Assembly (NCBI GenBank): GCA_004144865.1 | Contig: SEAY01000003.1 | Coordinates: forward strand, 1-64,000 | From: Comamonadaceae bacterium | Lineage (GTDB): Bacteria; Pseudomonadota; Gammaproteobacteria; Burkholderiales; Burkholderiaceae_C | Reading direction: 5' to 3' | Length of the DNA stretch: 64,000 nt | Position numbers and translations under genes: made by a program | Notes under the pieces: generated by a model | The model's database searches: none | What the model saw: the letters and a program-made list of their open reading frames with translations, nothing else | Told to the model about the DNA's origin: nothing | Shown here: positions 3,217 to 18,364 of the stretch, piece by piece | Numbering within the stretch: the first letter of the stretch is position 1 | Layout: every line of letters begins with the position of its first letter

Positions 3217-4341
3217 TTGGACAAGCGAACTGTCGGGATCGTGTGCGGGACCCGGCCCGAGATCATCAAGCTCGCGCCGGTGTACCACGCGCTGCGCGGG
3301 CACGAATCGCTGCGCGTCCTGTGGGTTCACACGGGACAGCATGGCGACATGGCGGCCGACATGCTGCGCTGCTTCGGCATCGAGCCGGACGTGCAGCTGG
3401 CGCGCACGGGCGCATCGCTGGAGGAATTCAGCATCGGCTGCCGGGCGCAGCTCGATGCGCTGATGGCCGGGCAGCGCTGGGACCTCTGCATCGTGCAGGG
3501 CGACACCGAAAGCGCGTTCCTGGGCGCGCTTTCTGCGTTCTACCGCCGCGTCCCCGTGGGGCACGTCGAGGCGGGGCTGCGCACCTACAACATCGAGCGC
3601 CCTTTCCCGGAAGAAGGCCTGCGGCAGATGATCAGCCGCATCACCAACATGCACTGGGCGCCCACCGAGCGTGCGCGCGCCGCGCTGCTCCGCGAGGGGA
3701 TCGAGCCCGAGAAGATCCAGCTCACCGGCAATACGGTGGTGGACGCGCAGCAATGGATCTGCGATCGCCATGGCATCCGCCGCGAGTCCGGGGCGGACCA
3801 GGGCCACATCCTGGTGACGGCCCACCGCCGCGAGAACTGGGGTGAGGAGATGGAGCAGACCTTCCATGCCGTCGCCGACATCGCGCGCGCGCATCCCTCG
3901 CGCCGCGTGCTGTTCCCGGTGCACCTCAACCCCGTCGTGCAGCGCCCGGCCCACGCGATCCTGCAGGGACTGGCGAACGTCAGCCTGGTCGCGCCGCTGG
4001 ACTACCTGGGCATGCAGCAGGCCCTGGTGAATGCCTGCCTGCTGCTCACCGATTCCGGCGGCCTGCAGGAGGAGGCGCCCACGTTCGGCGTCCCCACGCT
4101 GGTGCTGCGCCATGAGACCGAGCGCCCCGAGGCCGTCGAAGCGGGCTGCGCCCGCCTGGTCGGCCCCCGGCGCGACACGATCGTTCGGGAGGCGGGCCGA
4201 CTGCTCGCCGATGACCAGGCCGCCGAAGCCATGCGCAAGGTGGCCAATCCGTTCGGCGACGGGCAGGCGTCTGCCCGCATCGCCGCCGCCGTCCTGGCGC
4301 GCCTTGCCCTTCCGGCCGCGGCCGAAGAGGTGGCCGCCTGA
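3217..4341 (+). CDS. wecB: UDP-N-acetylglucosamine 2-epimerase (non-hydrolysing)
   Basis: This enzyme interconverts UDP-GlcNAc and UDP-ManNAc in the cytoplasm. The 374 residues match the usual family length. Signature stretches are GTRPEIIKLAPV at the N-terminus, VQGDTESAFLGAL, GHVEAGLRTYNIERPFPEE, TAHRRENWGE and the nucleotide-binding DSGGLQEEAPTFGVP with catalytic-region Asp, Glu and His residues. It is the first gene of the operon and starts at TTG behind a strong Shine-Dalgarno sequence. In E. coli, WecB supplies UDP-ManNAc to the NfrB-dependent polysaccharide. Its presence here next to NfrB- and NfrA-like genes points to a dedicated donor-sugar supply for a ManNAc-containing polymer, though it could also feed a common-antigen or capsule pathway. 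Confidence 0.93.
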   Translation: MDKRTVGIVCGTRPEIIKLAPVYHALRGHESLRVLWVHTGQHGDMAADMLRCFGIEPDVQLARTGASLEEFSIGCRAQLDALMAGQRWDLCIVQGDTESAFLGALSAFYRRVPVGHVEAGLRTYNIERPFPEEGLRQMISRITNMHWAPTERARAALLREGIEPEKIQLTGNTVVDAQQWICDRHGIRRESGADQGHILVTAHRRENWGEEMEQTFHAVADIARAHPSRRVLFPVHLNPVVQRPAHAILQGLANVSLVAPLDYLGMQQALVNACLLLTDSGGLQEEAPTFGVPTLVLRHETERPEAVEAGCARLVGPRRDTIVREAGRLLADDQAAEAMRKVANPFGDGQASARIAAAVLARLALPAAAEEVAA

Positions 4342-4357
4342 CAACCGAGGAATTTCC

Positions 4358-4738
4358 ATGCACCACGCCATCGTCCACCTTGCCGCCGTCGCAGCGCTCG
4401 CCTGCACCGGCGCCGCCTTCGCGCAAGTCACCCCGCCGCCTTTGCCGCCCGGCTCCAACCTCGTGCGGGCCGAGCCCGGCATGAGCGAGCCCGATCGCAA
4501 GCGCCACGTGCGCGCGCACCACCACAAGTTCCACCACAACAAGGACTACACCCGCGACGACAGCGTCCATGGGCACGAAAGTGCCATGGTGCGTACCGGA
4601 ACGCAGGGGGCTGCTCCCGGCGTGGCGCCCCCGGCAGCGGGCAGCGCGGCGCCCGCCGGCGGCGCGGGCACCGGCCCGGCGCGCGAGAAGACCGACCGGG
4701 GCGCCAGTTCCTATTTCCACGGCAACGAGAAGAAGTGA
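4358..4738 (+). CDS. Secreted His-rich small protein of unknown function
   Basis: The 126-residue product starts with a signal peptide (about 1-24, ending AGAAFAQ) and a Pro-rich stretch (VTPPPLPPGSN). A basic, His-rich block follows at about residues 48-66 (KRHVRAHHHKFHHNKDYTRDD), then a low-complexity Gly/Ala/Pro linker and a charged end (SSYFHGNEKK). It lies 16 bp after wecB and 10 bp before the DUF2334 gene, so it is surely in the operon. I do not recognise a family. The His cluster could bind metal or an anionic surface. A link to metal supply for the neighbouring deacetylase-like protein is speculation. Confidence 0.7.
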   Translation: MHHAIVHLAAVAALACTGAAFAQVTPPPLPPGSNLVRAEPGMSEPDRKRHVRAHHHKFHHNKDYTRDDSVHGHESAMVRTGTQGAAPGVAPPAAGSAAPAGGAGTGPAREKTDRGASSYFHGNEKK

Positions 4739-4748
4739 GAGGCCAGCC

Positions 4749-6404
4749 ATGAACTCCCTGCAGAAATTCGTCCTCCCCGTGCTGGCCGTCGCGACCTTCG
4801 CCGGCACGCAGATTCCCGCCCACGCGCAGACCGGAGGCACGACCACGCCGCCGAAGGTGCTGGCGCTGTACGACGCGCCCAGCGGCACGCCGTGGGACAA
4901 GCTCGGTTATGCGTACACCATCATGCTGCGCAACATGCTGGGACACTTCGACGCGCAGGTCGAGCTGCTCCCGGTGCAGCAGTACACGCCCGGCAAGGTG
5001 GAGGGCTACAGCGCCACCTTCTACATCGGCGCCTCGTACGACCACCAGATCCCGGCCGCCTTCCTGAGCGACGCGACCACCACCAGCAAGACGGTGGTCT
5101 GGTTCAAGTACAACCTGTGGCAACTGGCCTGGAACCAGGCCTACAACTTCGGCGCCGTCAAGGGCATCCAGTTCAACGGCCTGCGCGGCCTGAACGAGTC
5201 GCCGTCGGCGGCGAACCCGGAGCCGGGCTTCTTCAACACGGTGAAGTACAAGAACCTGGACTTCGTCAAGTACTACAGCTTCGACAGCGTGCGCGGCGTC
5301 GTGAACGCCGACCCGGACATCGGCCACGTGGCCGTCGCCGATCCGGCCAAGGCGCAGGTGGTGGTGCCGGTGGCCAATCCGAAGACCGGCGAGACGGCTC
5401 CGTACGTCGTGCGCTCGGGCAACTTCTGGTACTTCGCGGACCTGCCCTTCAGCTTCATCGGCCCGCGCGACCGCTACCTGGTGTTCAGCGACCTGCTGCA
5501 CGACATCCTGGCCGTGCCGCACGCCGAGAGCCACAAGGCGCTGGTGCGGCTGGAGGACGTGGGCGCGATGGTTTCCGTCGACGCCATGAAGAAGCTCACC
5601 GACTACATGAAGGGCCGCAACGTGCCGTTCTCGGTGGCCGTGATCCCGCGCTACGTGGACGGCCTCGGCACGTACAACGGCGGCCGGCGCCAGGAGGTGA
5701 ACCTGTCGCAGGCCACCAACCTGCGCACCTCGCTCAACTACGCCAAGGCGCGCGGCGGCGAGATGGTGATGCACGGCTTCACGCACCAGTACGGCACGAT
5801 GAAGAACCCGCACACCGGCGTGAGCGGCGACGACTACGAGTTCTGGAACATCGTCGACAACAAGCCGTTCCCCGAGGACTCGCCGTCCTGGGTGCTCGGC
5901 CGCCTCAACCAGGGCCTGTCGGACATGCGGGCCTGGGGCTTCAACCCGGTGGCCTGGGAAGCGCCGCACTACCACACGTCGGCCATCACGGCCCGCACCG
6001 CGCCGCAGCTGTTCACGACCACCTACCAGCGCGTCGTCTACTACACCGCCGACAAGCCCGACTTCTTCGCGTCCACCGCCAAGGACTTCAGCGTGGGGCA
6101 GTTCTACCCGTACGTCGTGCGCAAGGACTATTACGGCCAGTACGTGCTGCCGGAGAACCTGGGAAACATCGAGTACGACATCCGCACGGTCGACCCGACG
6201 TCGAACTACAACTACACGGCCGACGACCTGCTGCTGAACGCGAAGTACGCCAAGACCATCCGCGACGGCTTCGCCTCGTTCTTCTTCCATCCCTTCTGGC
6301 TCGAACCCAACCTCGGAACGCCCGGCTTCGAGGATTTCAAGAAGACCGTCGAAGGCATCTCCGCGCTCGGCTTCACCTGGGTTGCGCCCAGCACGCTGCG
6401 CTGA
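4749..6404 (+). CDS. DUF2334 polysaccharide-deacetylase-like secreted protein
   Basis: The 551-residue protein has a signal peptide (about 1-27, cleavage near AHAQ). After an N-terminal domain of about 250 residues comes a region resembling the NodB-like fold of DUF2334 proteins: ALVRLEDVGAMVS (metal Asp region) near residue 265, MHGFTHQYG with the HxxxH pair near 345, WEAPHYHTS near 405 and a late FFFHPFWLEP. These residues suggest a metal-dependent de-N-acetylase or esterase acting in the periplasm. In an operon with an epimerase and a glycosyltransferase it probably trims the polymer, as PgaB or PelA do in other systems. Catalysis is inferred and the substrate unknown. The start at 4749 has the signal peptide immediately after it. 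Confidence 0.8.
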   Translation: MNSLQKFVLPVLAVATFAGTQIPAHAQTGGTTTPPKVLALYDAPSGTPWDKLGYAYTIMLRNMLGHFDAQVELLPVQQYTPGKVEGYSATFYIGASYDHQIPAAFLSDATTTSKTVVWFKYNLWQLAWNQAYNFGAVKGIQFNGLRGLNESPSAANPEPGFFNTVKYKNLDFVKYYSFDSVRGVVNADPDIGHVAVADPAKAQVVVPVANPKTGETAPYVVRSGNFWYFADLPFSFIGPRDRYLVFSDLLHDILAVPHAESHKALVRLEDVGAMVSVDAMKKLTDYMKGRNVPFSVAVIPRYVDGLGTYNGGRRQEVNLSQATNLRTSLNYAKARGGEMVMHGFTHQYGTMKNPHTGVSGDDYEFWNIVDNKPFPEDSPSWVLGRLNQGLSDMRAWGFNPVAWEAPHYHTSAITARTAPQLFTTTYQRVVYYTADKPDFFASTAKDFSVGQFYPYVVRKDYYGQYVLPENLGNIEYDIRTVDPTSNYNYTADDLLLNAKYAKTIRDGFASFFFHPFWLEPNLGTPGFEDFKKTVEGISALGFTWVAPSTLR

Positions 6405-6440
6405 GCTGCCGTCGACATGAACATCACAACGAGGTCCAAA

Positions 6441-8531
6441 ATGAAACTTGCCCGTGTCCTGCCCGCCGCCGCGCTGGCGGTGCTCTGCCTGGCCCCCACG
6501 CTGGGCCAGTCGCAACAGCCGACGCTGCGGCCCGCGCAGCAGGTGGTGCCCAGCACGCCTCCGCAGACGTCGGTGTTCCGCCCCGTGGACCCGGCGGCGC
6601 CCAACGGGGCGGCCGCAACCAACGGCGTGGCCACCGCGCCGGCCGCGGCCGATGCCAACGCCGGCGTGTGGGTGCCGCGCACGGTCAGCTTCGCCGACCT
6701 CGGCTTCACCGAGCCGGTGGTGCTGGGCTACCCGGACACCATCCGGGAGATCTACCTGCCGGTCCCGCCCGGGGTGAACCTCTCCGGCGCCGTGTTGCAG
6801 CTGGACGCGAACTTCGTGCGCGCCGACGGCGGCCGCACCACGCTGATCTACGCGATCGACGGGGCGCCCGTGGTGGCCAACGGCATCACCACCGACCGCG
6901 GTGACGCCAGCGCGCAGATCCCGGTGGACGGCAAGCCGCGCCCGAGCGGCTTCGTTCGCCTCAACATCGACTGGCGCACCGCCGTCGCCCGCGAGAACAC
7001 CTGCGCCGACGCCCGCACGCCGGGCAACATCCTGCGCATCGAGCCGACCAGCAAGTTCGTGTTCCGCTACGACGGCTCCGCGGTCCGCGACCTGGCTTCC
7101 GCCTGGAGCGCGCTGCCCTCGGCGCCGACCATCCAGGTGGCGTCCCGTCAGCTTGCGCCCGAGGCCTACGACGCCGCCTGGCGCGTGGGCGTGGCGCTCG
7201 AGCGGGCCGGCAAGCGCCCGAAGATCCGCACCGCCGACGGCGCTGTCGCGAACGTGGACCCCGCCCAGTCCGGCGCTGCCGCCCCGGCAGCGGCCGGCGC
7301 GGCCGAAGCCGACATCATCATCGGCGGCCAGGCCGGCTCCAAGCAGATCGTCCTGCAGCACGTGAACGGCCGTCCGGTGATCGTGGTCGCCCCCGACGCC
7401 GGTGCCCAGGCCGCGGGCATCTTCTCGCAGATCTGGCAGCAGGCCGCCGCCGGTTCGCAGCTCACCGTCTCGGCGGTGGAAATGCCGCGCAGCGATTCCA
7501 ACGCCGTGTCGCTGCAGTACCTGGGCGCCAAGCCCGCCAGCTTCGACGTGCTCGCCCATGCGGACTGGAACGCCAGCTTCGACATCGGCAGCGTCGCGGC
7601 CGACGGCAAGGGCCCCGGCACGCTGGTGATCGACGTCGCCGCCGCGCCCAGCGCAGCGCGCACGCCGCCCGTGGTCTCGGTGTTCATGAACGACGTGCTG
7701 CTGGGCGCCAAGGAGATGGAAGCCAACGGCAAGCGCGAACGCATCGTCGCGCCGGTGCCGCGCTACGCCCTGCAGACGCGCAACGTGATCCGCGTGTCCT
7801 TCGTGCGCCAGCTCGCTTCCGACCGCTGCCGCGAGACGCCCGAGCCGTACCCGGTGTCCGTGCTGGCGTCCAGCCACATGCTGCTCGACACGATCGAAGC
7901 TTCCAGCGACTTCACCGGCCTGATGGCGAAGTTCGCCAACGGCGGCTCGCTGATGGTGCCCCAGTCGCACCTGGCTGATTCGGTGAACACGCTGCCGCGC
8001 GTGATCCGCCTGGCCGCGAGCACCGGCCTGTCGCCCGTGAAGGCGAAGTTCCAGCCCGTGGCCGACGGCCAGCAGGCGAAGGTGGACGGCCCCTACCTCG
8101 CGGTGGACGTGATCCCCGCCGGCTACGCCGAATCCGTGAAGCCGGAGCAGGGCCGCCTGTTCCTGGCCGGCGCCAAGGACCGTCCGCTGCTCGACGTGCG
8201 CGGCCTCAACCGCGTGGGGATGATCGAGGTGACCGGTTCCGGTGACGACATCGGCGCGGTGTACCGCAGCCTGGGCGCGCAGCCGCCGTCGATGGAGAAG
8301 CCGATCCAGCTCTCGGGCGGCAACCTGGCCATCATGGGCAACAACGGCCTGCGCACCGAGGTGAACACGCGGGATCCTTCGGGGCAGGGCGTGATGAGGG
8401 AGGCGCAGCCGGGCCTGTTCGAGCGCGGCTACTGGTGGCTGCTGCCGCTGGTGCTGGTCGCCCTGTTCGTCGGCCTGCTGGTGTTCGCCAGCCGCATGCG
8501 CCGCCGCAAGGCCATGGCGGGCGATCGCTGA
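6441..8531 (+). CDS. BcsB-like periplasmic polysaccharide synthase subunit
   Basis: The 696-residue protein has a signal peptide (MKLARVLPAAALAVLCLAP), a long periplasmic region with alternating beta-rich domains, and a single C-terminal membrane anchor at about residues 660-682 (YWWLLPLVLVALFVGLLVF) followed by RMRRRK. This layout, plus SFADLGFTEPVVLGYPD and the paired jelly-roll-type segments, fits BcsB, the periplasmic partner of cellulose synthase BcsA. No BcsA, BcsC or BcsZ is present, so it presumably serves the NfrB-like synthase encoded next. ATG 6441 has an upstream ACGAGG and is preferred over ATG 6417, which lacks a good ribosome-binding site. In the E. coli Nfr pathway no BcsB homologue is used. 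Confidence 0.75.
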   Translation: MKLARVLPAAALAVLCLAPTLGQSQQPTLRPAQQVVPSTPPQTSVFRPVDPAAPNGAAATNGVATAPAAADANAGVWVPRTVSFADLGFTEPVVLGYPDTIREIYLPVPPGVNLSGAVLQLDANFVRADGGRTTLIYAIDGAPVVANGITTDRGDASAQIPVDGKPRPSGFVRLNIDWRTAVARENTCADARTPGNILRIEPTSKFVFRYDGSAVRDLASAWSALPSAPTIQVASRQLAPEAYDAAWRVGVALERAGKRPKIRTADGAVANVDPAQSGAAAPAAAGAAEADIIIGGQAGSKQIVLQHVNGRPVIVVAPDAGAQAAGIFSQIWQQAAAGSQLTVSAVEMPRSDSNAVSLQYLGAKPASFDVLAHADWNASFDIGSVAADGKGPGTLVIDVAAAPSAARTPPVVSVFMNDVLLGAKEMEANGKRERIVAPVPRYALQTRNVIRVSFVRQLASDRCRETPEPYPVSVLASSHMLLDTIEASSDFTGLMAKFANGGSLMVPQSHLADSVNTLPRVIRLAASTGLSPVKAKFQPVADGQQAKVDGPYLAVDVIPAGYAESVKPEQGRLFLAGAKDRPLLDVRGLNRVGMIEVTGSGDDIGAVYRSLGAQPPSMEKPIQLSGGNLAIMGNNGLRTEVNTRDPSGQGVMREAQPGLFERGYWWLLPLVLVALFVGLLVFASRMRRRKAMAGDR

Positions 8532-8574
8532 CCTCGCAAGTGTCTGACGCCATAACAACCAGGAGCGGGAGCCG

Positions 8575-10752
8575 ATGATGAGCTGGGACCTGATGCTTGC
8601 CGAGTACAACTCCGGCCTGGAGGTGATCGCGGCCATCCTGACACTGGTCATCTTCGTCTCCTCGCTCGACGACCTGTTCATCGATGCGTGGTACTGGACG
8701 CGGCGGATCTTCCGCCGCGCCCGGGTCGAACGCAGCCCGCAGTACCGGCGCCTCTCGGTCGAGCAGCTGCGCGACCGGGAGGAACAGCCGATGGCGATCA
8801 TGGTGCCGGCGTGGCAGGAGAGCGACGTCATCGCCGCGATGATCCAGAACATGGTGGAGGTGCTGGAGTACCGCAACTACCGCGTCTTCGTCGGCACCTA
8901 CCCGAACGACCAGCCGACGATCGACGAAGTCGAACGCATGGCCAAGCGCTACCCGCAGCTGCAGCGCGTGGAGGTGCCGCACCCCGGCCCGACCAGCAAG
9001 GCCGACTGCCTGAACGCGGTGGTCGCGGCGATCTTCGACCACGAGCGCGAGCAGGACGTGGAGTTCGCGGGCGTGGTGCTGCACGACAGCGAGGACGTGC
9101 TGCACCCCCTGGAGCTGAAGTTCTTCAACTACCTGCTGCCGCGGATGGACATGATCCAGCTGCCGGTCGCCTCGCTGGAGCGCGAGTGGTACGAGCTGGT
9201 GGCGGGCACGTACATGGACGAATTCGCGGAGAGCCACGCCAAGGAAATGGTGGTGCGCGAGAGCGTCTCCGGCATGGTGCCGTCGGCCGGCGTCGGCACG
9301 TGCTTCTCGCGCAAGGCGCTGCTGGCGCTGGTGGGATCCACCCGGAACAAGCCCTTCAACATCGACAGCCTCACCGAGGACTACGACGTGGGCATGCGCC
9401 TGGCGCAGCTGAACATGAAGTCGATCTTCGGCGTGTTCCCGGTGACCTTCCACGTCAGCCGCAACTCCTGGGGCAGCAGGAAGCGGCGCGAGCTGCTGAT
9501 GGAGATGCCGCTGTGCGTGCGCGAATACTTCCCGGACAACTTCCGCGCGGCCTACCGCCAGAAGGCGCGCTGGGTGCTGGGCATCGGGCTGCAAGGCTGG
9601 GAGCAGATCCGGTGGCGCGGCCAGTCGCTGGCGGCGCGTTACCTGCTGCTCCACGACCGCAAGGGGGTGGTGACGTCCTTCATCAGCATCGTGGCGTACC
9701 TCCTGGTGCTGCACTTCATCTTCTTCCACGTCGGGCTTGCGACGGGATGGTGGCATGCCTACTACCCTTCGCTGTTCCAGGAGGGGAGCATCTGGCGCGC
9801 GATGATCTACGTCAACGCGATCTTCCTCGCCATCCGAGCGGCGCACCGGGTGTACTTCACCTCCGCGCTGTATGGCTGGGAGCACGGGTTGATGGCGCTG
9901 CCGCGCATGGTGGTGGGCAACTTCGTCAACTGCATGGCGGTGGCCCGCGCCTGGAAGATGTACCTGTCCTACCTGTTCAAGGGCACGCGCCTCGCCTGGG
10001 ACAAGACGGCCCACGAATTCCCGAGCAGCGCGCAGCTGGCGCGCCGCCGCCAGCGCCTGGGCGAACTGCTGCAATCCTGGAACGCGGTGGAGCCGGGCGC
10101 GTTGCAGCGCGCGCTGGAGAAGCAGGCCGGCGCCGACGTGCCGCTGGGCCGCGTGCTCGTGTCCAACGGCTGGCTGGACGAGGAGACGCTGGCCGAAGCC
10201 ATCGCGTACCAGGCCGACCTGCCGCGTGCACTCCTGTCTGCCGACCTGGTGCGCAAGCACGCCGGTGACCTGCCGCTGGACCTGGCGATCCGCCACCGCG
10301 CCGTGAACATGGGGCTGAACAAGCACAACCGCCCGATCCTCGCGGTCACGAGCCCGCTGTCGGAACCGGCACTCGCCGAGATCACGCAGCGCCTGGGGGT
10401 CGAGCCGGTGCAGCGCATCGGCCGCGAGGGCGAACTCGCGGTGGCGCTGCGCCTCCTGCGCGACGCGTCCCACGACGGCAAGTCCGCCACGGTGCCCACC
10501 GGCCCGTTGCTGGGCGACATGCTGATCGAGCGCGGCCTGCTGCGGCGCGACCAGTTCGACGGCGCGATGCAGGACTACCGGCCCGACCAGCACGGCCGCA
10601 TCGGCGACTACCTGGTCGAGCGCGGCGTGATCGCGCGCGAGATGCTGGAGCAGGTGGTGCAGGAGCAGCGCAGCTTCTTCGCCCGGGCCGCCAGCCAGCC
10701 GGACCAACACCAGAGGGGATTCTTCGGCAAGCCGTCTGCACAACCCATCTAG
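8575..10752 (+). CDS. nfrB: NfrB-like inner-membrane glycosyltransferase with MshEN-type C-terminus
   Basis: This is a 725-residue processive-type family 2 glycosyltransferase. It has an N-terminal membrane helix (about 14-34) and a GT2 domain with VLHDSEDVLHPLE (DxD-like), LTEDYDVGMRL (TED) and QKARWVLGIGLQGWEQIRW (QxxRW-like). Several membrane helices follow at about residues 360-470. The C-terminal region carries repeats of the MshEN pattern: PLGRVLVSNGWLDEE...AIAYQ (about 521), LLGDMLIERGLL (about 643) and RIGDYLVERGVI...QEQ (about 674). E. coli NfrB, needed for phage N4 adsorption, has the same architecture. There c-di-GMP binding to this region activates synthesis of a ManNAc-containing polysaccharide. 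The ATG follows AGGAGCGGGAG. Likely role: polymerise and translocate the polymer made from UDP-ManNAc. Confidence 0.85.
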   Translation: MMSWDLMLAEYNSGLEVIAAILTLVIFVSSLDDLFIDAWYWTRRIFRRARVERSPQYRRLSVEQLRDREEQPMAIMVPAWQESDVIAAMIQNMVEVLEYRNYRVFVGTYPNDQPTIDEVERMAKRYPQLQRVEVPHPGPTSKADCLNAVVAAIFDHEREQDVEFAGVVLHDSEDVLHPLELKFFNYLLPRMDMIQLPVASLEREWYELVAGTYMDEFAESHAKEMVVRESVSGMVPSAGVGTCFSRKALLALVGSTRNKPFNIDSLTEDYDVGMRLAQLNMKSIFGVFPVTFHVSRNSWGSRKRRELLMEMPLCVREYFPDNFRAAYRQKARWVLGIGLQGWEQIRWRGQSLAARYLLLHDRKGVVTSFISIVAYLLVLHFIFFHVGLATGWWHAYYPSLFQEGSIWRAMIYVNAIFLAIRAAHRVYFTSALYGWEHGLMALPRMVVGNFVNCMAVARAWKMYLSYLFKGTRLAWDKTAHEFPSSAQLARRRQRLGELLQSWNAVEPGALQRALEKQAGADVPLGRVLVSNGWLDEETLAEAIAYQADLPRALLSADLVRKHAGDLPLDLAIRHRAVNMGLNKHNRPILAVTSPLSEPALAEITQRLGVEPVQRIGREGELAVALRLLRDASHDGKSATVPTGPLLGDMLIERGLLRRDQFDGAMQDYRPDQHGRIGDYLVERGVIAREMLEQVVQEQRSFFARAASQPDQHQRGFFGKPSAQPI

Positions 10753-10770
10753 CGCCTGTCCATAACGACC

Positions 10771-13083
10771 ATGAAACAACAACAACGAAAGGCGCTGGCA
10801 CTCGCCGCCGTGCTCGCGCTTTCTTCCCTGGCAGCGTCGGCACAGACAAGCCCGGGCGCAGCCGCTCGCGGCGCCGGCGCCCGCGGTGCGCAGGCCGCCC
10901 ACGCGGCGGCCGATGCCGGCTACAAGGCCTACGACCGGCGCGACTACGCTGGCGCCATCGCGGCGGCGCAGCGCGCCGTGCAATTGGCCCCGCAGCGGCG
11001 CGACTACTGGCTGCTGCTGGCGCAGTCGCAGCTGGCCTCTGGCCAGCCGGACGCCGCCGAGCAGTCGCTTGCGCGCGCCGCCGCGGCCCGCGGCGACGAC
11101 GCGGCGCTGGCGCGCGGGCGTGCCGACCTGGCGCGCGCCCGCGCCCAGGCGGCGGGCGATGCCATGTACAAGGCGCTGCAGGCCGGCGACGTGAAGGCCG
11201 CCGTGGCGCAGGGCTCCGAAGCAGTGCGCCTGGCGCCGGAGAGCGCCGCCTACCGGCTCGTGCTGGTGCACGCGCTGTTGCGCGACAACCAGAACGCGCA
11301 GGCCGATCGCGTGGCCACCGAGGCCATCGCGCTGCTGCCGGAGAGCGCCGCGCCGCTGGCCATGCGCGGCTACGCACGCCAGGGGCTGGGCCGCGGAGCC
11401 GATGCGGACGCGGACCTCGACCGGGCGCTGCAGCAGAAGGGCCTCTCCTCGGCCGCCCAGCGCGAGATCCGCCTGCTTGCGGCGGACCTGGCGCTGGCGC
11501 AGGGGAACAGCCGGCGCGCCATGGACCTGCTGCAGGCGCTGCCCGCGAGCGACGCCGATGCGACCGCGCGGCGCGAACTCGCGCAGCAGGCGGGCGGGGC
11601 CGCTGCGACCCTGGCGCTGCGCGCACCCGGCATCGACTGCACCAACGTCGCGGCTTCACAGACCTGCACTTTGCAGGCCGCGGGCGTGCCGCCCACGCCC
11701 GGCTTCGTCCATGCGACGGCCGCCTACCGCGCGCTGGAGGAACGCGACGCGCAGCGGGCGCTGGAGCAGGCGCGGCTCGCCACGGCCGCGTCGCCGGCCA
11801 GCCGCGACTGGCACCTGATGCACATGAACGCGGCGCTCGCCGCGGGCCAGCCGGCGGAAGCGCAACGCGCCGCCACTGCGGCGCTCGCCTTGCGCCCGGA
11901 TGCGCAGACGCTGGCGCAGCGCGCCTCCATTCGCCGCCAGGCCGGTGACGAGGTCGGCGCGCGGGCCGATGCCGAAGCCGCGCTGCAGTCCGGCGACCTG
12001 CCCGCCGCCACGCGGGCCGCGCTGCTGGCCGACCTCGGCCGCACGCGAGAGGCGCGCGAACTGCTCGCGAGCGCACCCGCCGGCGCGGCCACGCCGCAGG
12101 GGCGGCTCGACATGGCCTACCTGTCGGCGCGCATCGGCGACGACCAGGCCGCGCGCGCCGCATTCGCGCAGGCCGACGCCGCCGGCGGGCTGCCGCCTTC
12201 GTCGCTGATGGACGCGGGCTATGCGTCCATGCGGGCGAAGCAGGACGACGAGGCGGTGGCGTACTTCAAGCGGGCCGTCGACGCCGTCAACGGGCTGCAG
12301 CTGAAGATGGAGCCGCAGATGCTTTACGACACCCGCCGGCAGATCGCCGAGGTGTCGCGCAAGTGGGGCGTGCTGGCGTCGATCACCAGCCGCAACGGCA
12401 GCGGCGTCGCCCCCGGCTTCGGCGCCGTGGGCGGCGGCTCGCCCGGCCAGCGTGTCGCGCAGGCCGGCGCCGAGGTGTACTACCGCCCCTGGGGGTTCCG
12501 CAACGGCCAGTTCGTGGAAGTGTTCGCCCGCGGCTTCGCCACGCTGGACAGCGACAACGGCGGCGCGACCGGCGGCGACAGCTTCTCGGGCGCCGTCGGC
12601 GCGCGCTGGAAGCCCCTGACGGCGCAGAACCTGGTGCTTTCGCTCAGCCGCACGTTCGGCCCGAACGTCAACGACGACTGGCTCGCGCAGATCGGCTGGT
12701 CGTGGGACCATGGCACCGACCTGCGCGTCGACCGCCGCAGCTGGTGGACCACGCGCCTGTACGCCGAGGCGGGGCGCTACCTGGAGAACGAGATCGACTA
12801 CGGCATCGTCTCGGCCATGCTCGGCCGCAGCTACGTGGCCAGCGCCGACGGCCGCACCGTGCTGTTCCCGCACCTGTTCGTGGGCGCCGAGTACGCCTCC
12901 GATGCGCCGGGGGACAACACCGCGGCCGGCGCCGGCCCGGGCGTGAGCCTGCGCCGCTGGTTCCGCGAGGACACTTACAACGCGCCGCGCTCGTACTGGG
13001 ACGTTACCGTGCAGTACCGGGCGCGCCTGAGCGGCGACGAGCGCATGAAGGGCCTGTTCATCAACGGGCTGCTCTCCTACTGA
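10771..13083 (+). CDS. nfrA: NfrA-like TPR and outer-membrane export protein
   Basis: The 770-residue protein has a signal peptide (about 1-25, ASAQT). A long Ala-rich alpha-helical region with TPR-like repeats covers about residues 40-540, with helix pairs such as GYKAYDRRDYAGAIAAAQRAVQLAP. The C-terminal domain of about 220 residues is beta-rich and ends SGDERMKGLFINGLLSY, as in the bacteriophage N4 adsorption protein A family. Two cysteines (IDCTNVAASQTC) could form a disulfide. In E. coli NfrA is the outer-membrane part of the N4 receptor and the predicted polysaccharide exporter. It starts 18 bp after nfrB. The TPR-plus-barrel layout is shared with BcsC, PgaA and AlgK/AlgE. Confidence 0.83.
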   Translation: MKQQQRKALALAAVLALSSLAASAQTSPGAAARGAGARGAQAAHAAADAGYKAYDRRDYAGAIAAAQRAVQLAPQRRDYWLLLAQSQLASGQPDAAEQSLARAAAARGDDAALARGRADLARARAQAAGDAMYKALQAGDVKAAVAQGSEAVRLAPESAAYRLVLVHALLRDNQNAQADRVATEAIALLPESAAPLAMRGYARQGLGRGADADADLDRALQQKGLSSAAQREIRLLAADLALAQGNSRRAMDLLQALPASDADATARRELAQQAGGAAATLALRAPGIDCTNVAASQTCTLQAAGVPPTPGFVHATAAYRALEERDAQRALEQARLATAASPASRDWHLMHMNAALAAGQPAEAQRAATAALALRPDAQTLAQRASIRRQAGDEVGARADAEAALQSGDLPAATRAALLADLGRTREARELLASAPAGAATPQGRLDMAYLSARIGDDQAARAAFAQADAAGGLPPSSLMDAGYASMRAKQDDEAVAYFKRAVDAVNGLQLKMEPQMLYDTRRQIAEVSRKWGVLASITSRNGSGVAPGFGAVGGGSPGQRVAQAGAEVYYRPWGFRNGQFVEVFARGFATLDSDNGGATGGDSFSGAVGARWKPLTAQNLVLSLSRTFGPNVNDDWLAQIGWSWDHGTDLRVDRRSWWTTRLYAEAGRYLENEIDYGIVSAMLGRSYVASADGRTVLFPHLFVGAEYASDAPGDNTAAGAGPGVSLRRWFREDTYNAPRSYWDVTVQYRARLSGDERMKGLFINGLLSY

Positions 13084-13085
13084 AG

Positions 13086-13922
13086 ATGCGCCGCTACATC
13101 CTGGGGCTGGCCGCGGCCGCCGCCGCGCTGCTGGCCGGTTGCGCCAACCCGGCGGTGCCCCCGATCGAGGGCATCGTCTGGCAGGTCGACAACGAGCACA
13201 CCGAACCGGAAGGCGACTGGCAGCGCCTGGGCGTGCGGCGCCTGCTCGTGCAGTGGACGGTGGTGGACAACCTCGCTTTCGTGCCGGGCACCGATGTGCC
13301 GCCGGGCGCGCGCATGCCCGACTGGCAGCGCATCGCCAGGCAGCCCTGGGCGCAGGAAGTCATCGTGGGGCTGGCGGGCCGCTTCGACGAGCGCGGCGCC
13401 CGCGGCGACCTCGAAGGGTTGGTGGCGCTGTCGGCCAGGGTGGCGCGGACGCCGCCGCCGGTGAACATCGCCGGCTGGTATTTCCCCATCGAGATCGACC
13501 CCACGTGGATGGAGGCCTATCGCCTGCGCACGCTGCTCGACCAGCTGCCGCGGCCGCTGTGGATCAGCGTGTACGACAGCGCCAACGTCGGCCCGGAGGA
13601 ACTTGCCCAGAGCCTGAGCGAGTGGCTGCCGCCCGACGTGGGCGTGTTCTTCCAGGACGGGGTGGGCGTGCACGCGCGCGAGGCCTATGTCGCCCGCCAC
13701 TATGCCAACGTGCTGGTGCGGCGGCTGGGACGGGAACGCGTGCGGCTCATCGCCGAGGCGTTCCGGCCGCAGCCGGGCGGCGGATTCCGTCCGGCGACGG
13801 TGGATGAGCTGCGGCCCCAGCTCGCCACCTACGCGGGTTTCCCCATTTATCTCTTCGAAGGCCCGCGCTACGTGCAGCCCGCGCTCGTGGAGGCCCTTGC
13901 GGCGGGGCAACAGCAGAGGTAG
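13086..13922 (+). CDS. Glycosidase-like lipoprotein (possible DUF4434 type)
   Basis: The 278-residue product has a lipobox (LLAGC, Cys about 19), so it is probably anchored to a membrane on the periplasmic side. The body looks like a TIM-barrel glycoside-hydrolase-like domain: GVRRLLVQWTVVD, GWYFPIEIDPTWMEAYR with an acidic pair, PLWISVYDSANVGPEEL, VGVFFQDGVGVHAREA and ending YAGFPIYLFEGPRYVQP. I recall similar patterns in DUF4434 proteins but cannot confirm it. The gene starts 3 bp after nfrA, so the two are coupled. In synthase-dependent systems a periplasmic hydrolase of this kind often edits or clears polymer. It may be the counterpart of YbcH in the E. coli nfr region, which a comparison could test. 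Confidence 0.7.
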   Translation: MRRYILGLAAAAAALLAGCANPAVPPIEGIVWQVDNEHTEPEGDWQRLGVRRLLVQWTVVDNLAFVPGTDVPPGARMPDWQRIARQPWAQEVIVGLAGRFDERGARGDLEGLVALSARVARTPPPVNIAGWYFPIEIDPTWMEAYRLRTLLDQLPRPLWISVYDSANVGPEELAQSLSEWLPPDVGVFFQDGVGVHAREAYVARHYANVLVRRLGRERVRLIAEAFRPQPGGGFRPATVDELRPQLATYAGFPIYLFEGPRYVQPALVEALAAGQQQR

Positions 13923-13934
13923 TCGCCGTCCTAC
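13919..13934. promoter_or_regulatory. GTAGT-N6-CCTAC site before the FimV-like gene
   Basis: GTAGT-CGCCGT-CCTAC overlaps the stop codon of the lipoprotein gene and matches the GTAGG-N6-CCTAC palindrome at 9 of 10 arm bases. Further TCCTAC and TCTTAC half-sites follow at 13952 and 13978, just before the gene start. The repeated half-sites suggest cooperative binding. Confidence 0.4.
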
Positions 13935-13996
13935 AGCCGGACCGCAGTGTTTCCTACCCGCACGAATCTGCAGAGCTTCTTACAGTGCGTGAGCCC

Positions 13997-15964
13997 ATGA
14001 AAAACTTGCTTACGACTGCACGCATCCTGGCGCTTTTGCTGCTGGGTTCGGGGCCCGCCGCGGGACAGTCGCTGGGCTCGCCCGCCGCCGAGATCTGGAT
14101 GGGCCGCCCGCTGGAGATGACGGTACCGGCACGATTCGCCCCCGGCGACACGGGCGGCGAATGCGTCCACGCGGATGTGTTCTACGGCGACGCGCGGGTG
14201 CCCGCCGACCGGGTGCGCGCCACGGTCGTCGGCGCCGACGCACAGAAGCGCGTGCGCATCGAAGCCAGTGCCGCGGTCAACGAGCCCGTGATCACCGTCT
14301 CGGTGCGCGCCGGCTGCCGCAACACCGTCACGCGCAACTACACCCTGCTGCCGGAGATGCCCTCCGAGACGATGGTTGCGGCGCTGGTGGCGCGCCAGCA
14401 GGCTGCCATTGCCGGCCCCGTGGCCGCGGCGCCGCTGCGCCTGGCGGCCAGCACCTCGCCGTCCGCCGTGCCGCGGGCGCCGCGCGCGTCGGTGGTGCGG
14501 ACCGCGGAAGCGCGCAGCGGCGACGGCCCCGCGCCGCGCACGCGCACCGCTTCGCCCGTTCGCAAGCCGGCCGCGCCGGGGCCACGCCTGCGGCTGGAGC
14601 CGATCGAGATGGAGCAGCAGGCGATGCTGCGCGTGAGCTCGCAGCTCGCGGAGCCGCAGGGCGATGCCGCCCGGCGCGCGACCGCGGCGCTGTTGTGGCA
14701 GGCGATCAATGCCGATCCCCAGGAACTGCTGCGCACCACGGCCATGCTGCAGAAGCTGGAGGGCGACCTGCTGCAGTTGCGGCAGGCGTCCGGGCAGACG
14801 CGCGCCGAACTGGCCGCGCTGCGCCAGCGGCTGGACGCGGTGCAGCACCAGCCCTGGTATGCCTCGGCAGCCGCGATGCAGGTGCTGGCGCTGCTGGTCC
14901 TGGCGGCCGGCGCCGCGGCGGCTTTCGTCTGGTACCGCACGCGCCGGGCCGGCGAGGAGCCTTGGTACGAGGCTCCCGCCCCCCTCACGCCCGCGGCGGC
15001 CAGCCTGCCTTCGGGCGCCGAGGATGCCGAACCGGCGCAGGAGCCTTCCGGGGTCTCCGCGCCGGCGCCGCGCGAGGTGCCTGCGACGGTCGCCGCCGAA
15101 GCGCCCCGCAAGGCGGCGAAGGGTCCTGACGTTCACCGCGGCGTCGACTTCGAGCTGCCCCAGCCCGTCGCCGCGCTGCGCCGCCCGGGCACCGGGGTGC
15201 TGCGGGTGGAGACGCTCACCGCCACTTTCGAGGAAGTCGAGTTCCTCACTTCGCTGGGCCTCTCCCAGGACGCCACCGACGTGCTCAAGGCTTACCTGCA
15301 GGACAGCGCCGCGCCCGCCCCGCTGGCCTGGTTCGAGCTGATGCGCCTGTGCCAGCAGCACGAGGACGCCGCCGCGGTCGCCACGGTGCGCCGCCGCTAC
15401 GCCCATATGTATGGGGCCGATGCGCCCCGCCTCGACAAGCTCGCGGCGCCCTTCGGGCTGGAGAGCGTGCCCGAACTCAGCGCGCGCATCATCGCCGCCT
15501 GGGGGCGGCCCGAGGTGCTGGACGTGATCGAGGAAGCGCTGTTCAAGGTGCCGCAACCGGGCTCCTCCATGACCTTGCAGGCGGGGCGCGACCTGCTGTG
15601 CCTGCATGACCTCGCCCTGCGGCTGGCGGCCGACGCCGCGGCTCCGGACCTGGATGCGGCGCCGCCCGACGAGCACCCGCTCGCCCCCTGGGCGCATCTG
15701 GAAGACCCCGCGGCGGCCCAAGCCGCGGCGCAGGCCGTCGCCGATGCGGAAAGCGGTCGTCACTTCGCGCTGGATGTCGATCTTGGCGCCGAGACCGAGG
15801 TGCTGCCCGAGCAGGTCCCGGAGCCCGATCTCGCGCCGTTGCTGGAGGAGATGCAGGCTGCCGCACGCGAGGCCGCGGCACGCCAGGCCGCGCGCCAGGC
15901 CCAGGACGAAGACGCGTTCAGCGCCGCGATGGCGTCCGAGCGGGTGCCGGTCAGCCGGTTCTAG
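13997..15964 (+). CDS. FimV-like single-pass membrane protein
   Basis: The 655-residue protein has an N-terminal signal sequence or anchor (about 1-22), a periplasmic region with two cysteines (GECVHADV and RAGCRNTV), an Ala/Pro-rich linker, a coiled-coil-like stretch (about 225-285) and a central membrane helix near residues 293-315 (MQVLALLVLAAGAAAAFVWY). The cytoplasmic half is acidic, with TPR-like helices (FEEVEFLTSLGLSQDATDVLKAYL) and a charged tail. This layout resembles FimV/TspA proteins, polar organisers of type IV pili and second-messenger signalling. No LysM motif is evident. GTG 13985 is an alternative start 12 bp upstream. It lies between the polysaccharide operon and an EAL protein, so it may help place or regulate the secretion machine (inference). 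Confidence 0.65.
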   Translation: MKNLLTTARILALLLLGSGPAAGQSLGSPAAEIWMGRPLEMTVPARFAPGDTGGECVHADVFYGDARVPADRVRATVVGADAQKRVRIEASAAVNEPVITVSVRAGCRNTVTRNYTLLPEMPSETMVAALVARQQAAIAGPVAAAPLRLAASTSPSAVPRAPRASVVRTAEARSGDGPAPRTRTASPVRKPAAPGPRLRLEPIEMEQQAMLRVSSQLAEPQGDAARRATAALLWQAINADPQELLRTTAMLQKLEGDLLQLRQASGQTRAELAALRQRLDAVQHQPWYASAAAMQVLALLVLAAGAAAAFVWYRTRRAGEEPWYEAPAPLTPAAASLPSGAEDAEPAQEPSGVSAPAPREVPATVAAEAPRKAAKGPDVHRGVDFELPQPVAALRRPGTGVLRVETLTATFEEVEFLTSLGLSQDATDVLKAYLQDSAAPAPLAWFELMRLCQQHEDAAAVATVRRRYAHMYGADAPRLDKLAAPFGLESVPELSARIIAAWGRPEVLDVIEEALFKVPQPGSSMTLQAGRDLLCLHDLALRLAADAAAPDLDAAPPDEHPLAPWAHLEDPAAAQAAAQAVADAESGRHFALDVDLGAETEVLPEQVPEPDLAPLLEEMQAAAREAAARQAARQAQDEDAFSAAMASERVPVSRF

Positions 15965-15989
15965 GAACACCCCGAAGGAAGGAGGCGCC

Positions 15990-17873
15990 ATGGCGATGGT
16001 GCAGCAACGACCCGTAGCCGAAGCGATAGCGATCCTGGACGACACGCGGCCGCTGATCGAGCGCCTTGCCGGGGCCAGCCGCCCCGCCTGGCTCTACACC
16101 GCCGCCCTGCATCCGGCCGACGAACCGCAGCGCCTCTCGGAACTGCGCTCCTTCGGCATCCTGGACACCGACCCCGACGAGGATTACGACCGGCTGGTGC
16201 AACTGGCCACCGCGCTGTGCGGCGCCCCGATGGGCGCGCTGACCTTCGTGGACTCCGGCCGGCAGTGGTACAAGTCCCGCGTCGGCCTGCCGGTGCAGCA
16301 GGTGGCGCGCGAGAAGTCCTTCTGCGCGCACGCGATCCTGGAAAGCGACCGCGTGCTGGAAATCCCGGACGTGACGCGGCTCGGCTGGGCCGACGCGCAG
16401 CCCTGGGGGCCGCAGGGCCCGCTGCTGCGCTTCTACGCGGGCGTGCCGCTCACGACGCGCGACGGCAGCGCCATCGGCACCCTGTGCGTGATGGACCAGG
16501 TGCCGCGGCGGCTGAGCGAAGCCCAGCGCGACGGCCTGGTGAAGCTCGGAAAGACCGTTTCCGCCTTGCTGAACCTGCGCCGCCAGGTGCGCGTCGCCAC
16601 CCTGACCGACCGCCTGACGGGATTGCCGAACTGGTTCCACTTCGAGGCGGAGTTCGACCAGCGCAAGCCCGACTGCGGCATGGTGTGCTTCGCGCGCTTG
16701 AAGACGATCAACCAGATCAACTCGGCCCACGGCTTCCGCGTGGCCGACGCGTTGATCAAGCAGGCCGCGGACCGCCTGCGCCTGCTCGGCGAGCGCGGCG
16801 CGGTGGTCGGCCGCATCAAGCGCGGCCTGTTCGTGCTGTTCTTCCCCCACGCGAAGCCGGCGGAGTTCGCGCGCGACATGGCGCCCCAGATCGCTGCGAG
16901 CCTGGGCCGCCCCTACGAGGTGAACCACCTGTCGCTGGTCTGTCCGGTGAACATGGGATTCGCCTCGTACCCCGACGACGGGCGCACGCTCGACGAGGTG
17001 GTGAACGCCGCCGACACGGCGCTGCAGGTCGCCATCGAGCGCGAGCAGCCGATGGCGTTCTTCGACCGCTCGGTGGACAACGTCCAGAGCCTGCACTACC
17101 GGCTGGAGCCGCAGTTGCGCCGTGCGCTGGAGAAGAGCGAGTTCGTCAACTACTACCAGCCGAAGGTGGAGCTGGCCACCGGCCGCATCGTCGGCGTCGA
17201 GGCGCTGGTGCGCTGGATGGATCCCGGCCGCGGCCTGGTGCCGCCGGGCGACTTCGTGCCGGCCCTGGAGACCACGGGGCTGATCGGCGAGGTGGCGCAG
17301 AAGATCATGGAGCGGGCCGTCCGGGACTGGTGCAGCTGGCGCGATGCCGGGCTGACGGCGCCGCGCATCGCCGTCAACGTGGCGGCCACGCAGCTGCGCA
17401 ACGACGATTTCGTGCCCTCGCTGCAACGGGCGCTGGAGGCCTTGCACGGCGATCCTTCCGCCCTTGGCATCGAGGTGACCGAGAGCATCCTGATCTCGAA
17501 CATGGATCGCGCCATCGAGGTGCTGAAGCGCGTGCGGGAGCTGGGCGTCCCCGTGGCCATCGACGACTTCGGCACCGGCTACTCGTCGCTTGCGTACATC
17601 GTGACCCTGCCGATCGACGAGCTGAAGATCGACCGTGCCTTCGTCAAGAAGATCACTGCCGACAAGGCGTACGAGGGCATCGTGCGCACCTGCGTCTCGC
17701 TGGCGCAGGGCCTCAACCTGAAGGTGGTGGCCGAGGGCGTCGAGACCGAGTCGCAGGCTGCCAAGCTGCGCGACCTGCAGTGCGACCAGGCCCAGGGCTT
17801 CTTCTACAGCCCGCCGGTGCCGGCGGAGCAGCTGGTGAAGATGCTGGCAGCACAGCCCTTCCGCGCGGCCTGA
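15990..17873 (+). CDS. GAF / degenerate GGDEF / EAL protein, probable c-di-GMP phosphodiesterase
   Basis: The 627-residue cytoplasmic protein has a GAF domain (about 40-185; SELRSFGILDTDPDEDYDRLVQLA, DSGRQWYKSRVGL). A GGDEF-like domain follows (about 200-350), in which the catalytic motif is replaced (GRIKRGLFVL), so cyclase activity is not expected. The EAL domain (about 370-620) keeps GVEALVRW, NVAAT, IEVTESIL, IDDFGTGYSSL, LKIDRAF, AEGVETE and QGFFYSPPV, the full metal and catalytic set of active phosphodiesterases. ATG 15990 follows AAGGAAGGAGG. It lies 25 bp downstream of the FimV-like gene and two genes after the Nfr-type operon, whose synthase has a c-di-GMP-binding type tail, so it is a likely off-switch. 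Confidence 0.88.
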   Translation: MAMVQQRPVAEAIAILDDTRPLIERLAGASRPAWLYTAALHPADEPQRLSELRSFGILDTDPDEDYDRLVQLATALCGAPMGALTFVDSGRQWYKSRVGLPVQQVAREKSFCAHAILESDRVLEIPDVTRLGWADAQPWGPQGPLLRFYAGVPLTTRDGSAIGTLCVMDQVPRRLSEAQRDGLVKLGKTVSALLNLRRQVRVATLTDRLTGLPNWFHFEAEFDQRKPDCGMVCFARLKTINQINSAHGFRVADALIKQAADRLRLLGERGAVVGRIKRGLFVLFFPHAKPAEFARDMAPQIAASLGRPYEVNHLSLVCPVNMGFASYPDDGRTLDEVVNAADTALQVAIEREQPMAFFDRSVDNVQSLHYRLEPQLRRALEKSEFVNYYQPKVELATGRIVGVEALVRWMDPGRGLVPPGDFVPALETTGLIGEVAQKIMERAVRDWCSWRDAGLTAPRIAVNVAATQLRNDDFVPSLQRALEALHGDPSALGIEVTESILISNMDRAIEVLKRVRELGVPVAIDDFGTGYSSLAYIVTLPIDELKIDRAFVKKITADKAYEGIVRTCVSLAQGLNLKVVAEGVETESQAAKLRDLQCDQAQGFFYSPPVPAEQLVKMLAAQPFRAA

Positions 17874-17917
17874 CGTTCTCGCTGCGTCCCCGTGTTCTTT
17901 GGTGCACTGCGGCGTTT

Positions 17918-18364
17918 GTAGGCTGGCGGTGAGCGCGAAGCCCGAATCCCCAGCGTTCTTCGGCACCGCGCCCACGTCGCCCCAGGCGGTGCGCGGTGCC
18001 GGCCCGCTGGGGCGGTGGCCGGCGCGCCAAGCGCGCCGGCAAACCTGAAAGGCTGTTCCCGGCGCCGCACGCGAAGAACTCGTCTGCAGTTGGGCCGCTA
18101 CGCGACCCAACTGCGAACTCGAACAGCTTCGCGAGCATGAGACGGTCGCGTGGCTCGATGCGGTCGCTGCGCTCCCTCTCGTAGCCACGCTGCGGCGCCG
18201 GGAACAGCCTTTCAGGCACCGCCCCCTTATGCGGGCCGGCACCGCGGACCGCCTGGCGCGACGGGAAGCGCTCTGCTTGATCGACAAGTTGAGAGACCAC
18301 CGCTTGGCAGCGGCAGAGCGCCAAAACTCGCTGGGGTTCGCCTTCGCGCTCACCGCCAGCCTAC
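17918..18364 (+). repeat. Quasi-palindromic ~447-bp intergenic element, copy B
   Basis: The ends are imperfect inverted repeats of about 37 bp: left GTAGGCTGGCGGTGAGCGCG (17918-17955), right the reverse complement ending CTCACCGCCAGCCTAC (18329-18364). Nested inside are further inverted pairs: GTGCGCGGTGCCGGCCC with GGGCCGGCACCGCGGAC, AAAGGCTGTTCCCGGCGCCG with its inverse, and a central hairpin around GTTGGGCCGC/GCGACCCAAC. No gene, transposase or target-site duplication is seen. It fills the 520-bp gap between the EAL protein and the kinase-like gene. Copy A in inverse orientation sits at 215-662. Confidence 0.8.

Follow-up and report, generated by a model that had tools for sequence, protein, structure and literature searches.

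What does a bacterium gain from placing a deacetylase-like gene within an operon for an Nfr-type polysaccharide synthase, and does this gene belong to the system at all? The question is raised by seven closely spaced genes, all on the + strand, at positions 3217-13922 of a 64,000-nucleotide stretch of DNA (contig SEAY01000003.1 of a Comamonadaceae bacterium; hereafter the window). The genome, 4.35 Mb in 243 contigs, carries the window on the contig labelled C185. We take the host to be a Ramlibacter judging from its NfrB, whose closest named relatives (74-89% identity) come from Ramlibacter and close kin. The receptor of phage N4 is a polymer of N-acetylmannosamine (ManNAc) type, and the operon probably makes, trims and exports a polymer of this kind. 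On balance, we favour a BcsB-type Nfr system, that is, a synthase-dependent exopolysaccharide system resembling those termed NGR and PGR, which is equipped with its own deacetylase. This reading builds on the composition of the operon, the predicted folds of its products, conserved active-site residues and a recurrent linkage of the deacetylase-like gene to nfr genes.

The seven genes and their coordinates had been proposed in an earlier note on this DNA and proved correct; the intergenic gaps are 2-43 bp. The first gene, wecB (3217-4341, TTG start), encodes a non-hydrolysing UDP-N-acetylglucosamine 2-epimerase (PF02350, E 1.9e-97; TIGR00236, 390 bits against a cut-off of 210), which is expected to supply UDP-ManNAc. 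It is followed by genes for a small secreted-looking protein (4358-4738), a long DUF2334 protein (4749-6404), a BcsB-like periplasmic subunit with a C-terminal hydrophobic helix (6417-8531, the start being either 6417 or 6441), the membrane synthase NfrB (8575-10752), NfrA, which combines TPR repeats with a C-terminal outer-membrane export part (10771-13083; NfrA_C PF13283, E 4.1e-44; TPR_19, E 5.1e-10), and a lipoprotein of the DUF4434 (YbcH) family (13086-13922; PF14488, E 6.7e-8; lipobox LLAGC by eye). The DUF4434 family match is found in all 29 members of a selected alignment; a search of PDB sequences with its profile returned weak unrelated matches only. The lipoprotein may be glycosidase-like.

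The DUF2334 protein consists of a signal peptide (by eye), an N-terminal alpha/beta part and a C-terminal domain (PF10096, E 1.4e-44, residues 263-525) that resembles deacetylases of carbohydrate esterase family 4 (CE4). It had been called deacetylase-like before, and the call holds: its predicted fold is that of a CE4-like (beta/alpha) barrel deacetylase. D270, H342 and H346 are invariant in the aligned DUF2334 proteins, the histidines in HxxxH spacing, which we take to be the Asp-His-His metal site of CE4 type. In CE4 deacetylases, the catalytic Asp directly precedes the metal-binding Asp, giving a DD pair. Here, an invariant E-D pair occupies this place, and we therefore term the protein CE4-like. 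Searching PDB sequences with DUF2334 profiles likewise placed CE4-type enzymes at the top, albeit with weak matches (7ax7, E 0.03 and 0.015). The protein might instead be a hydrolase of the related glycoside hydrolase family 57 (GH57)-like barrel and cut the chain rather than deacetylate it, but deacetylases rank higher among the fold matches and the D270-H342-H346 site with its HxxxH spacing fits a metal-dependent CE4-like centre, which makes such a hydrolase highly improbable. A pattern check covering 42 distinct DUF2334 proteins or pieces detected the four motifs in 37, 39, 38 and 35 of them, and all four together in 31. The remaining 11 are mostly cut or split frames; three copies that stand apart from nfr genes (L199, L202 and L204) look whole and yet lack the pattern of the last motif.

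Does the DUF2334 gene act together with its neighbours, or is it a passenger with another substrate in an otherwise ordinary BcsB-containing Nfr/PGR system of the published type? It lies inside the operon with gaps of only 10 and 12 bp, which argues against a passenger, and so does its distribution. Among 399 genomes of the order, DUF2334 matches above 150 bits occur solely in this genome and in G391, both next to nfrB (next best match, 99.9 bits); some match at E 0.001 is present in 67 of the 399, the majority being short or weak. Seven of the 369 genomes sampled from the class, this one included, carry NfrB at 1e-60, and DUF2334 reaches at least 120 bits in 7 of 258 class genomes, four of which (this genome, G1014, G975 and G965) have NfrB on the same contig (Fisher test, p 6.6e-6, with all seven NfrB-positive genomes taken as among the 258, for three of them by assumption). 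The gene orders differ: G1014 shows DUF2334-DUF2334-wecB-nfrB-nfrA-DUF4434, G975 nfrB-nfrA-DUF4434-DUF2334, and G965 BcsB-wecB-nfrA-nfrB with a divergent DUF2334 gene past another gene, while G946 has DUF2334 together with NfrA- and DUF4434-like genes on a single 4.6-kb contig. In two further genomes, G855 and G929, the contig with DUF2334 is short or cut and shows none of the nfr genes. G391, G1014, G975, G965 and G946 bear five different family labels, and on the NfrB tree the DUF2334 label has to change five times. In loci L084, L227, L228 and L229, the DUF2334 proteins linked to nfr share 33-49% identity with that of the window and fall into separate lineages of a DUF2334 tree in which seven short rows were omitted and several branches are long and unsure. 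Two nfr loci contain a tandem DUF2334 pair, namely L105 (and L054) from a metagenome-assembled Ramlibacter genome and L229 from G1014.

Other counts weigh against an own deacetylase as an integral part of the system. A long DUF2334 protein is encoded by none of the 24 NfrB-positive genomes tested from the phylum sample and by only 2 of the 16 from the order; DUF2334 is thus an accessory that just a minority of nfr loci possess. Moreover, of 27 DUF2334 matches above 130 bits in 60 genomes of the genus, 16 belong to nfr loci (two of them assigned because the contig carries pieces of wecB, the small gene or BcsB), eight stand alone and three are at contig ends. The eight standalone copies are interspersed with the nfr-linked ones in the tree, indicating that DUF2334 is not exclusive to nfr systems. 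These copies (L198-L204 and L206, from Ramlibacter, with no nfr genes nearby) include several that by eye appear lipoprotein-like with Gly/Ser-rich linkers. The passenger explanation draws on the same standalone genes and on the absence of DUF2334 from most of the nfr genomes sampled, as well as on the commonness of the remaining gene set, both in our neighbourhood survey (BcsB in 77 of 80 loci, see below) and in work on Achromobacter and Acinetobacter (PMC8669472, PMC12507263; text seen in part). Weighed against the tight gaps and the linkage in separate lineages, we consider it unlikely.

The neighbourhood survey started from 327 NfrB stretches that had been confirmed in genomes of GTDB, from which the best 80 named loci, nearest to the NfrB of the window, were kept. 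Profiles were built from the proteins of the window, those of four plasmid records and their matches, and same-strand matches of at least 40 bits were counted over a span reaching 8.5 kb upstream and 10 kb downstream of nfrB. As nearest kin, the 80 loci lean to the BcsB type, and their shares are not those of all nfr loci. BcsB was found in 77 of them, wecB in 65, NfrA in 79, DUF4434 in 64, AlgF-like genes in 26, AlgI- and AlgJ-like genes in 12 and DUF2334 in 12; the corresponding counts among the 59 fully flanked loci are 57, 54, 59, 55, 20, 7 and 7. Co-occurrence of nfr, DUF2334 and BcsB genes outside this genome, which the note had made a test of its proposal, is thus borne out. All 12 DUF2334 loci belong to Ramlibacter, Caenimonas or one further Burkholderiales record, and the same core without DUF2334 is present in Herbaspirillum, Paraburkholderia, Ralstonia and Pseudomonas. 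The locus of the window also exists in cultured species, R. pallidus and R. cellulosilyticus being examples. On two plasmid records, L035 (Paraburkholderia dioscoreae) and L039 (Zymomonas), wecB, nfrB and nfrA are found together; such surface-polymer systems can thus be plasmid-borne. In Ramlibacter terrae (L123/L057), the entire locus is broken into many short frames, reflecting either decay or sequencing error, and was counted as fragments only.

The survey also bears on what the DUF2334 protein would remove. AlgF-like genes are absent from all 12 DUF2334 loci and present in 26 of the 68 others, which is what one would expect if the protein were an esterase for O-acetyl groups (O-deacetylase), opposite in role to the AlgF/AlgI/AlgJ-like O-acetylation genes in sister loci; acetylxylan esterases among its fold matches point the same way. 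However, the DUF2334 loci show no O-acetylation genes whose products it could act upon, and the exclusion rests on related genomes and shrinks to 0 of 7 versus 20 of 52 when flanks are full (p 0.08). That O-acetylation genes and DUF2334 exclude each other is therefore suggestive only, and we regard an O-deacetylase as quite unlikely.

The product of the gene starting at 6441 had been called BcsB-like, and this is upheld by its predicted BcsB fold, although the Pfam match is marginal (PF03170, E 2.8e-5, 23.1 bits versus a cut-off of 21). PDB sequence searches with its profile (alignment of 48 out of 74 available sequences) or with the protein alone returned nothing relevant. A hybrid of Nfr and Bcs components is not unique to this genome, as is evident from the survey and from the papers on Achromobacter and Acinetobacter. 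An NfrB tree of 59 chosen loci unites the BcsB type in one clade of 37 rows (support 100/100), inside which four Ramlibacter loci, three of them second copies, have no BcsB. The distant locus L227 possesses a separate BcsB-like gene (32 bits), after which its label in the tree was set by hand. The order sample contains 15 other NfrB-positive genomes (L074-L088): six have BcsB, eight do not, and in one the contig is cut.

The synthase itself is of Nfr type: it is a glycosyltransferase family 2 (GT2) enzyme bearing MshEN, nfrA is co-operonic and wecB is linked to nfrB. It scores 1050 bits with PRK15489 and 629 bits with the NfrB model, below the cut-off of 1170 of that model, and carries the TED and QKARW motifs (the latter the QxxRW of GT2 enzymes). 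The model for cyclic di-GMP (c-di-GMP)-binding motifs matches in two stretches (E 2.2e-23), and hmmscan down to E 1 listed MshEN and no PilZ domain. Counterparts of E. coli D169, D267, W330, L490, G491 and G519 are kept, and L537 is replaced by I; in E. coli, the first three residues are assigned to glycosyltransferase activity and L490, G491 and G519 to c-di-GMP (PMC8669469, PMC8669472; text seen in part). Two Epimerase_2 genes came up in a search of the genome, both directly preceding an nfrB, in agreement with the published finding that wecB adjoins nfrB in genomes lacking a separate copy (PMC8669469). The second nfr locus (C227:112875-115564; L040) comprises wecB, an nfrB of reduced length (matching the operon's NfrB over residues 7-508 only) and nfrA; a search with our own profiles found no BcsB, DUF2334 or DUF4434 there. 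The gene upstream of it looks LuxR-type by eye.

The small protein encoded upstream of DUF2334 (126 residues, His-rich, signal peptide by eye) had no family match in domain libraries when scanned as 4451-4738. Among 13 sequences inspected, 12 have RAHH and 10 have RAHHHK, after which comes a run of basic and acidic residues such as KDYTRDDS. The gene accompanies DUF2334 in all seven full-flank loci, and its profile also gives matches close to L204 (76 bits) and L206 (96 bits), two of the eight DUF2334 genes that stand alone. One DUF2334 protein of L229 has a His/Lys-rich stretch at its own N-terminus. Our guess from these observations is that the protein might be a metal-binding or metal-delivery partner of DUF2334. 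It also precedes DUF2334 in the BcsB-less locus L058, where most of its histidines are lost, which weighs against a strict metal-delivery role.

Beyond the seven genes, the same-direction run extends to nine genes (3217 to 17873, gaps of 2-62 bp) by a gene for a FimV-like protein (13985-15964; FimV_N, E 0.026, below cut-off) and one for a GAF-GGDEF-EAL protein (15990-17873; EAL, E 3.9e-70; GGDEF, E 1.6e-19), both kept in 7 of 7 full-flank DUF2334 loci. The latter protein retains the EAL motifs and misses the GGDEF motif, making it a probable c-di-GMP phosphodiesterase. A long repeat with inverted internal parts (positions 1-700 and 17917-18282) brackets the operon on either side. It has 104 partial matches in the genome, two others being near full length and many comprising only a ~35-bp core, and probably represents a multi-copy palindromic repeat family. 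A defence-system library gave no match to five of the operon's proteins, and scanning the whole window for Rfam families (at the gathering threshold) and for tRNA genes yielded none.

In the system that we favour, WecB would provide UDP-ManNAc, which c-di-GMP-activated NfrB would polymerise while moving the chain through the inner membrane. In the periplasm, the BcsB-like subunit would take it over, and there the secreted DUF2334 protein, possibly assisted by the small protein, would strip part of the N-acetyl groups at its metal-dependent CE4-like site. The DUF4434 lipoprotein may then bind or trim the chain prior to export by NfrA. With its EAL motifs intact and no GGDEF motif, the downstream protein may set, e.g. 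lower, the local c-di-GMP level near NfrB. The sugar, N- rather than O-deacetylation, the order of events and the regulation are modelled on the E. coli, Acinetobacter, Pel and PNAG (poly-N-acetylglucosamine) systems, and the Ramlibacter polymer may serve as a phage receptor. With a deacetylase-like gene recurring next to the synthase, a ManNAc chain bearing free amines is predicted, and long DUF2334 proteins gain a first proposed substrate class; separation into O-acetylating and deacetylating branches of one synthase family may follow. More tentatively, long DUF2334 proteins could constitute an undescribed class of N-deacetylases with a PelA/NDST-like two-domain core, serving Nfr polymers of several proteobacterial families. 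The product would be a cationic, partly deacetylated ManNAc/mannosamine polymer whose extent of deacetylation adjusts adhesion in biofilms and the binding of phages, with the small His-rich protein handing over the metal. If so, it would be the mannosamine counterpart of deacetylated PNAG (dPNAG).

How does this compare with known systems? The periplasmic deacetylases of synthase-dependent Pel and PNAG production, PelA and PgaB, unite hydrolase and deacetylase in one protein, whereas separate genes encode such proteins here. PelA aligns loosely with the DUF2334 protein over 356 residues in a fold comparison. For PgaB, no sequence similarity to the DUF2334 or DUF4434 protein was found, and sequence comparison gave no support for either protein as a sequence-recognisable half of PgaB. 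The E. coli Bcs cellulose system shares the BcsB fold and differs from the operon, which has an NfrB synthase with MshEN and no PilZ match, and NfrA as outer-membrane part. E. coli nfrBA-ybcH with wecB (NGR) has WecB, NfrB with MshEN, NfrA and YbcH/DUF4434; there, wecB lies in the operon for enterobacterial common antigen, and the text available to us reports neither BcsB nor a deacetylase (PMC8669469, PMC8669472). Two further clusters, as far as the accessible text describes them, also include BcsB. That of Achromobacter xylosoxidans combines nfrA, nfrB and wecB with a BcsB homologue and, unlike the operon, has O-acetyltransferase homologues, the text on the cluster naming no deacetylase (PMC8669472). 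The PGR locus of Acinetobacter baumannii, with a proposed ManNAc polymer, comprises NfrB-, WecB- and BcsB-like genes plus an outer-membrane porin and a PgaB-C-like protein; phage-adsorption genetics showed that the BcsB homologue PgrD and the WecB homologue PgrF are required for phage StAb3, deletion of pgrD abolishing adsorption (PMC12507263). The words 'deacetylase' and 'DUF' are absent from the main text of that paper. The claim that no system of this composition had been described thus largely falls, since wecB, nfrB, nfrA and BcsB are together in print, and stands only for DUF2334, which was not found in the covered text of these papers. Nor did we find literature pairing DUF2334 with exopolysaccharides or deacetylases, bearing in mind that figures or supplements may draw such a gene unnamed. 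The NGR and PGR polymers act as receptors for phages, and that literature (PMC8669469, PMC8669472, PMC12507263; in the text covered) calls their chemistry unknown; phages needing this pathway are reported to have glycan deacetylase tailspikes (PMC8669472), to which DUF2334 would be the host-side counterpart. What appears to be new, going by the text covered, is a deacetylase-like DUF2334 partner that recurs beside nfr loci in several bacterial families, most of the gene set having already been described.
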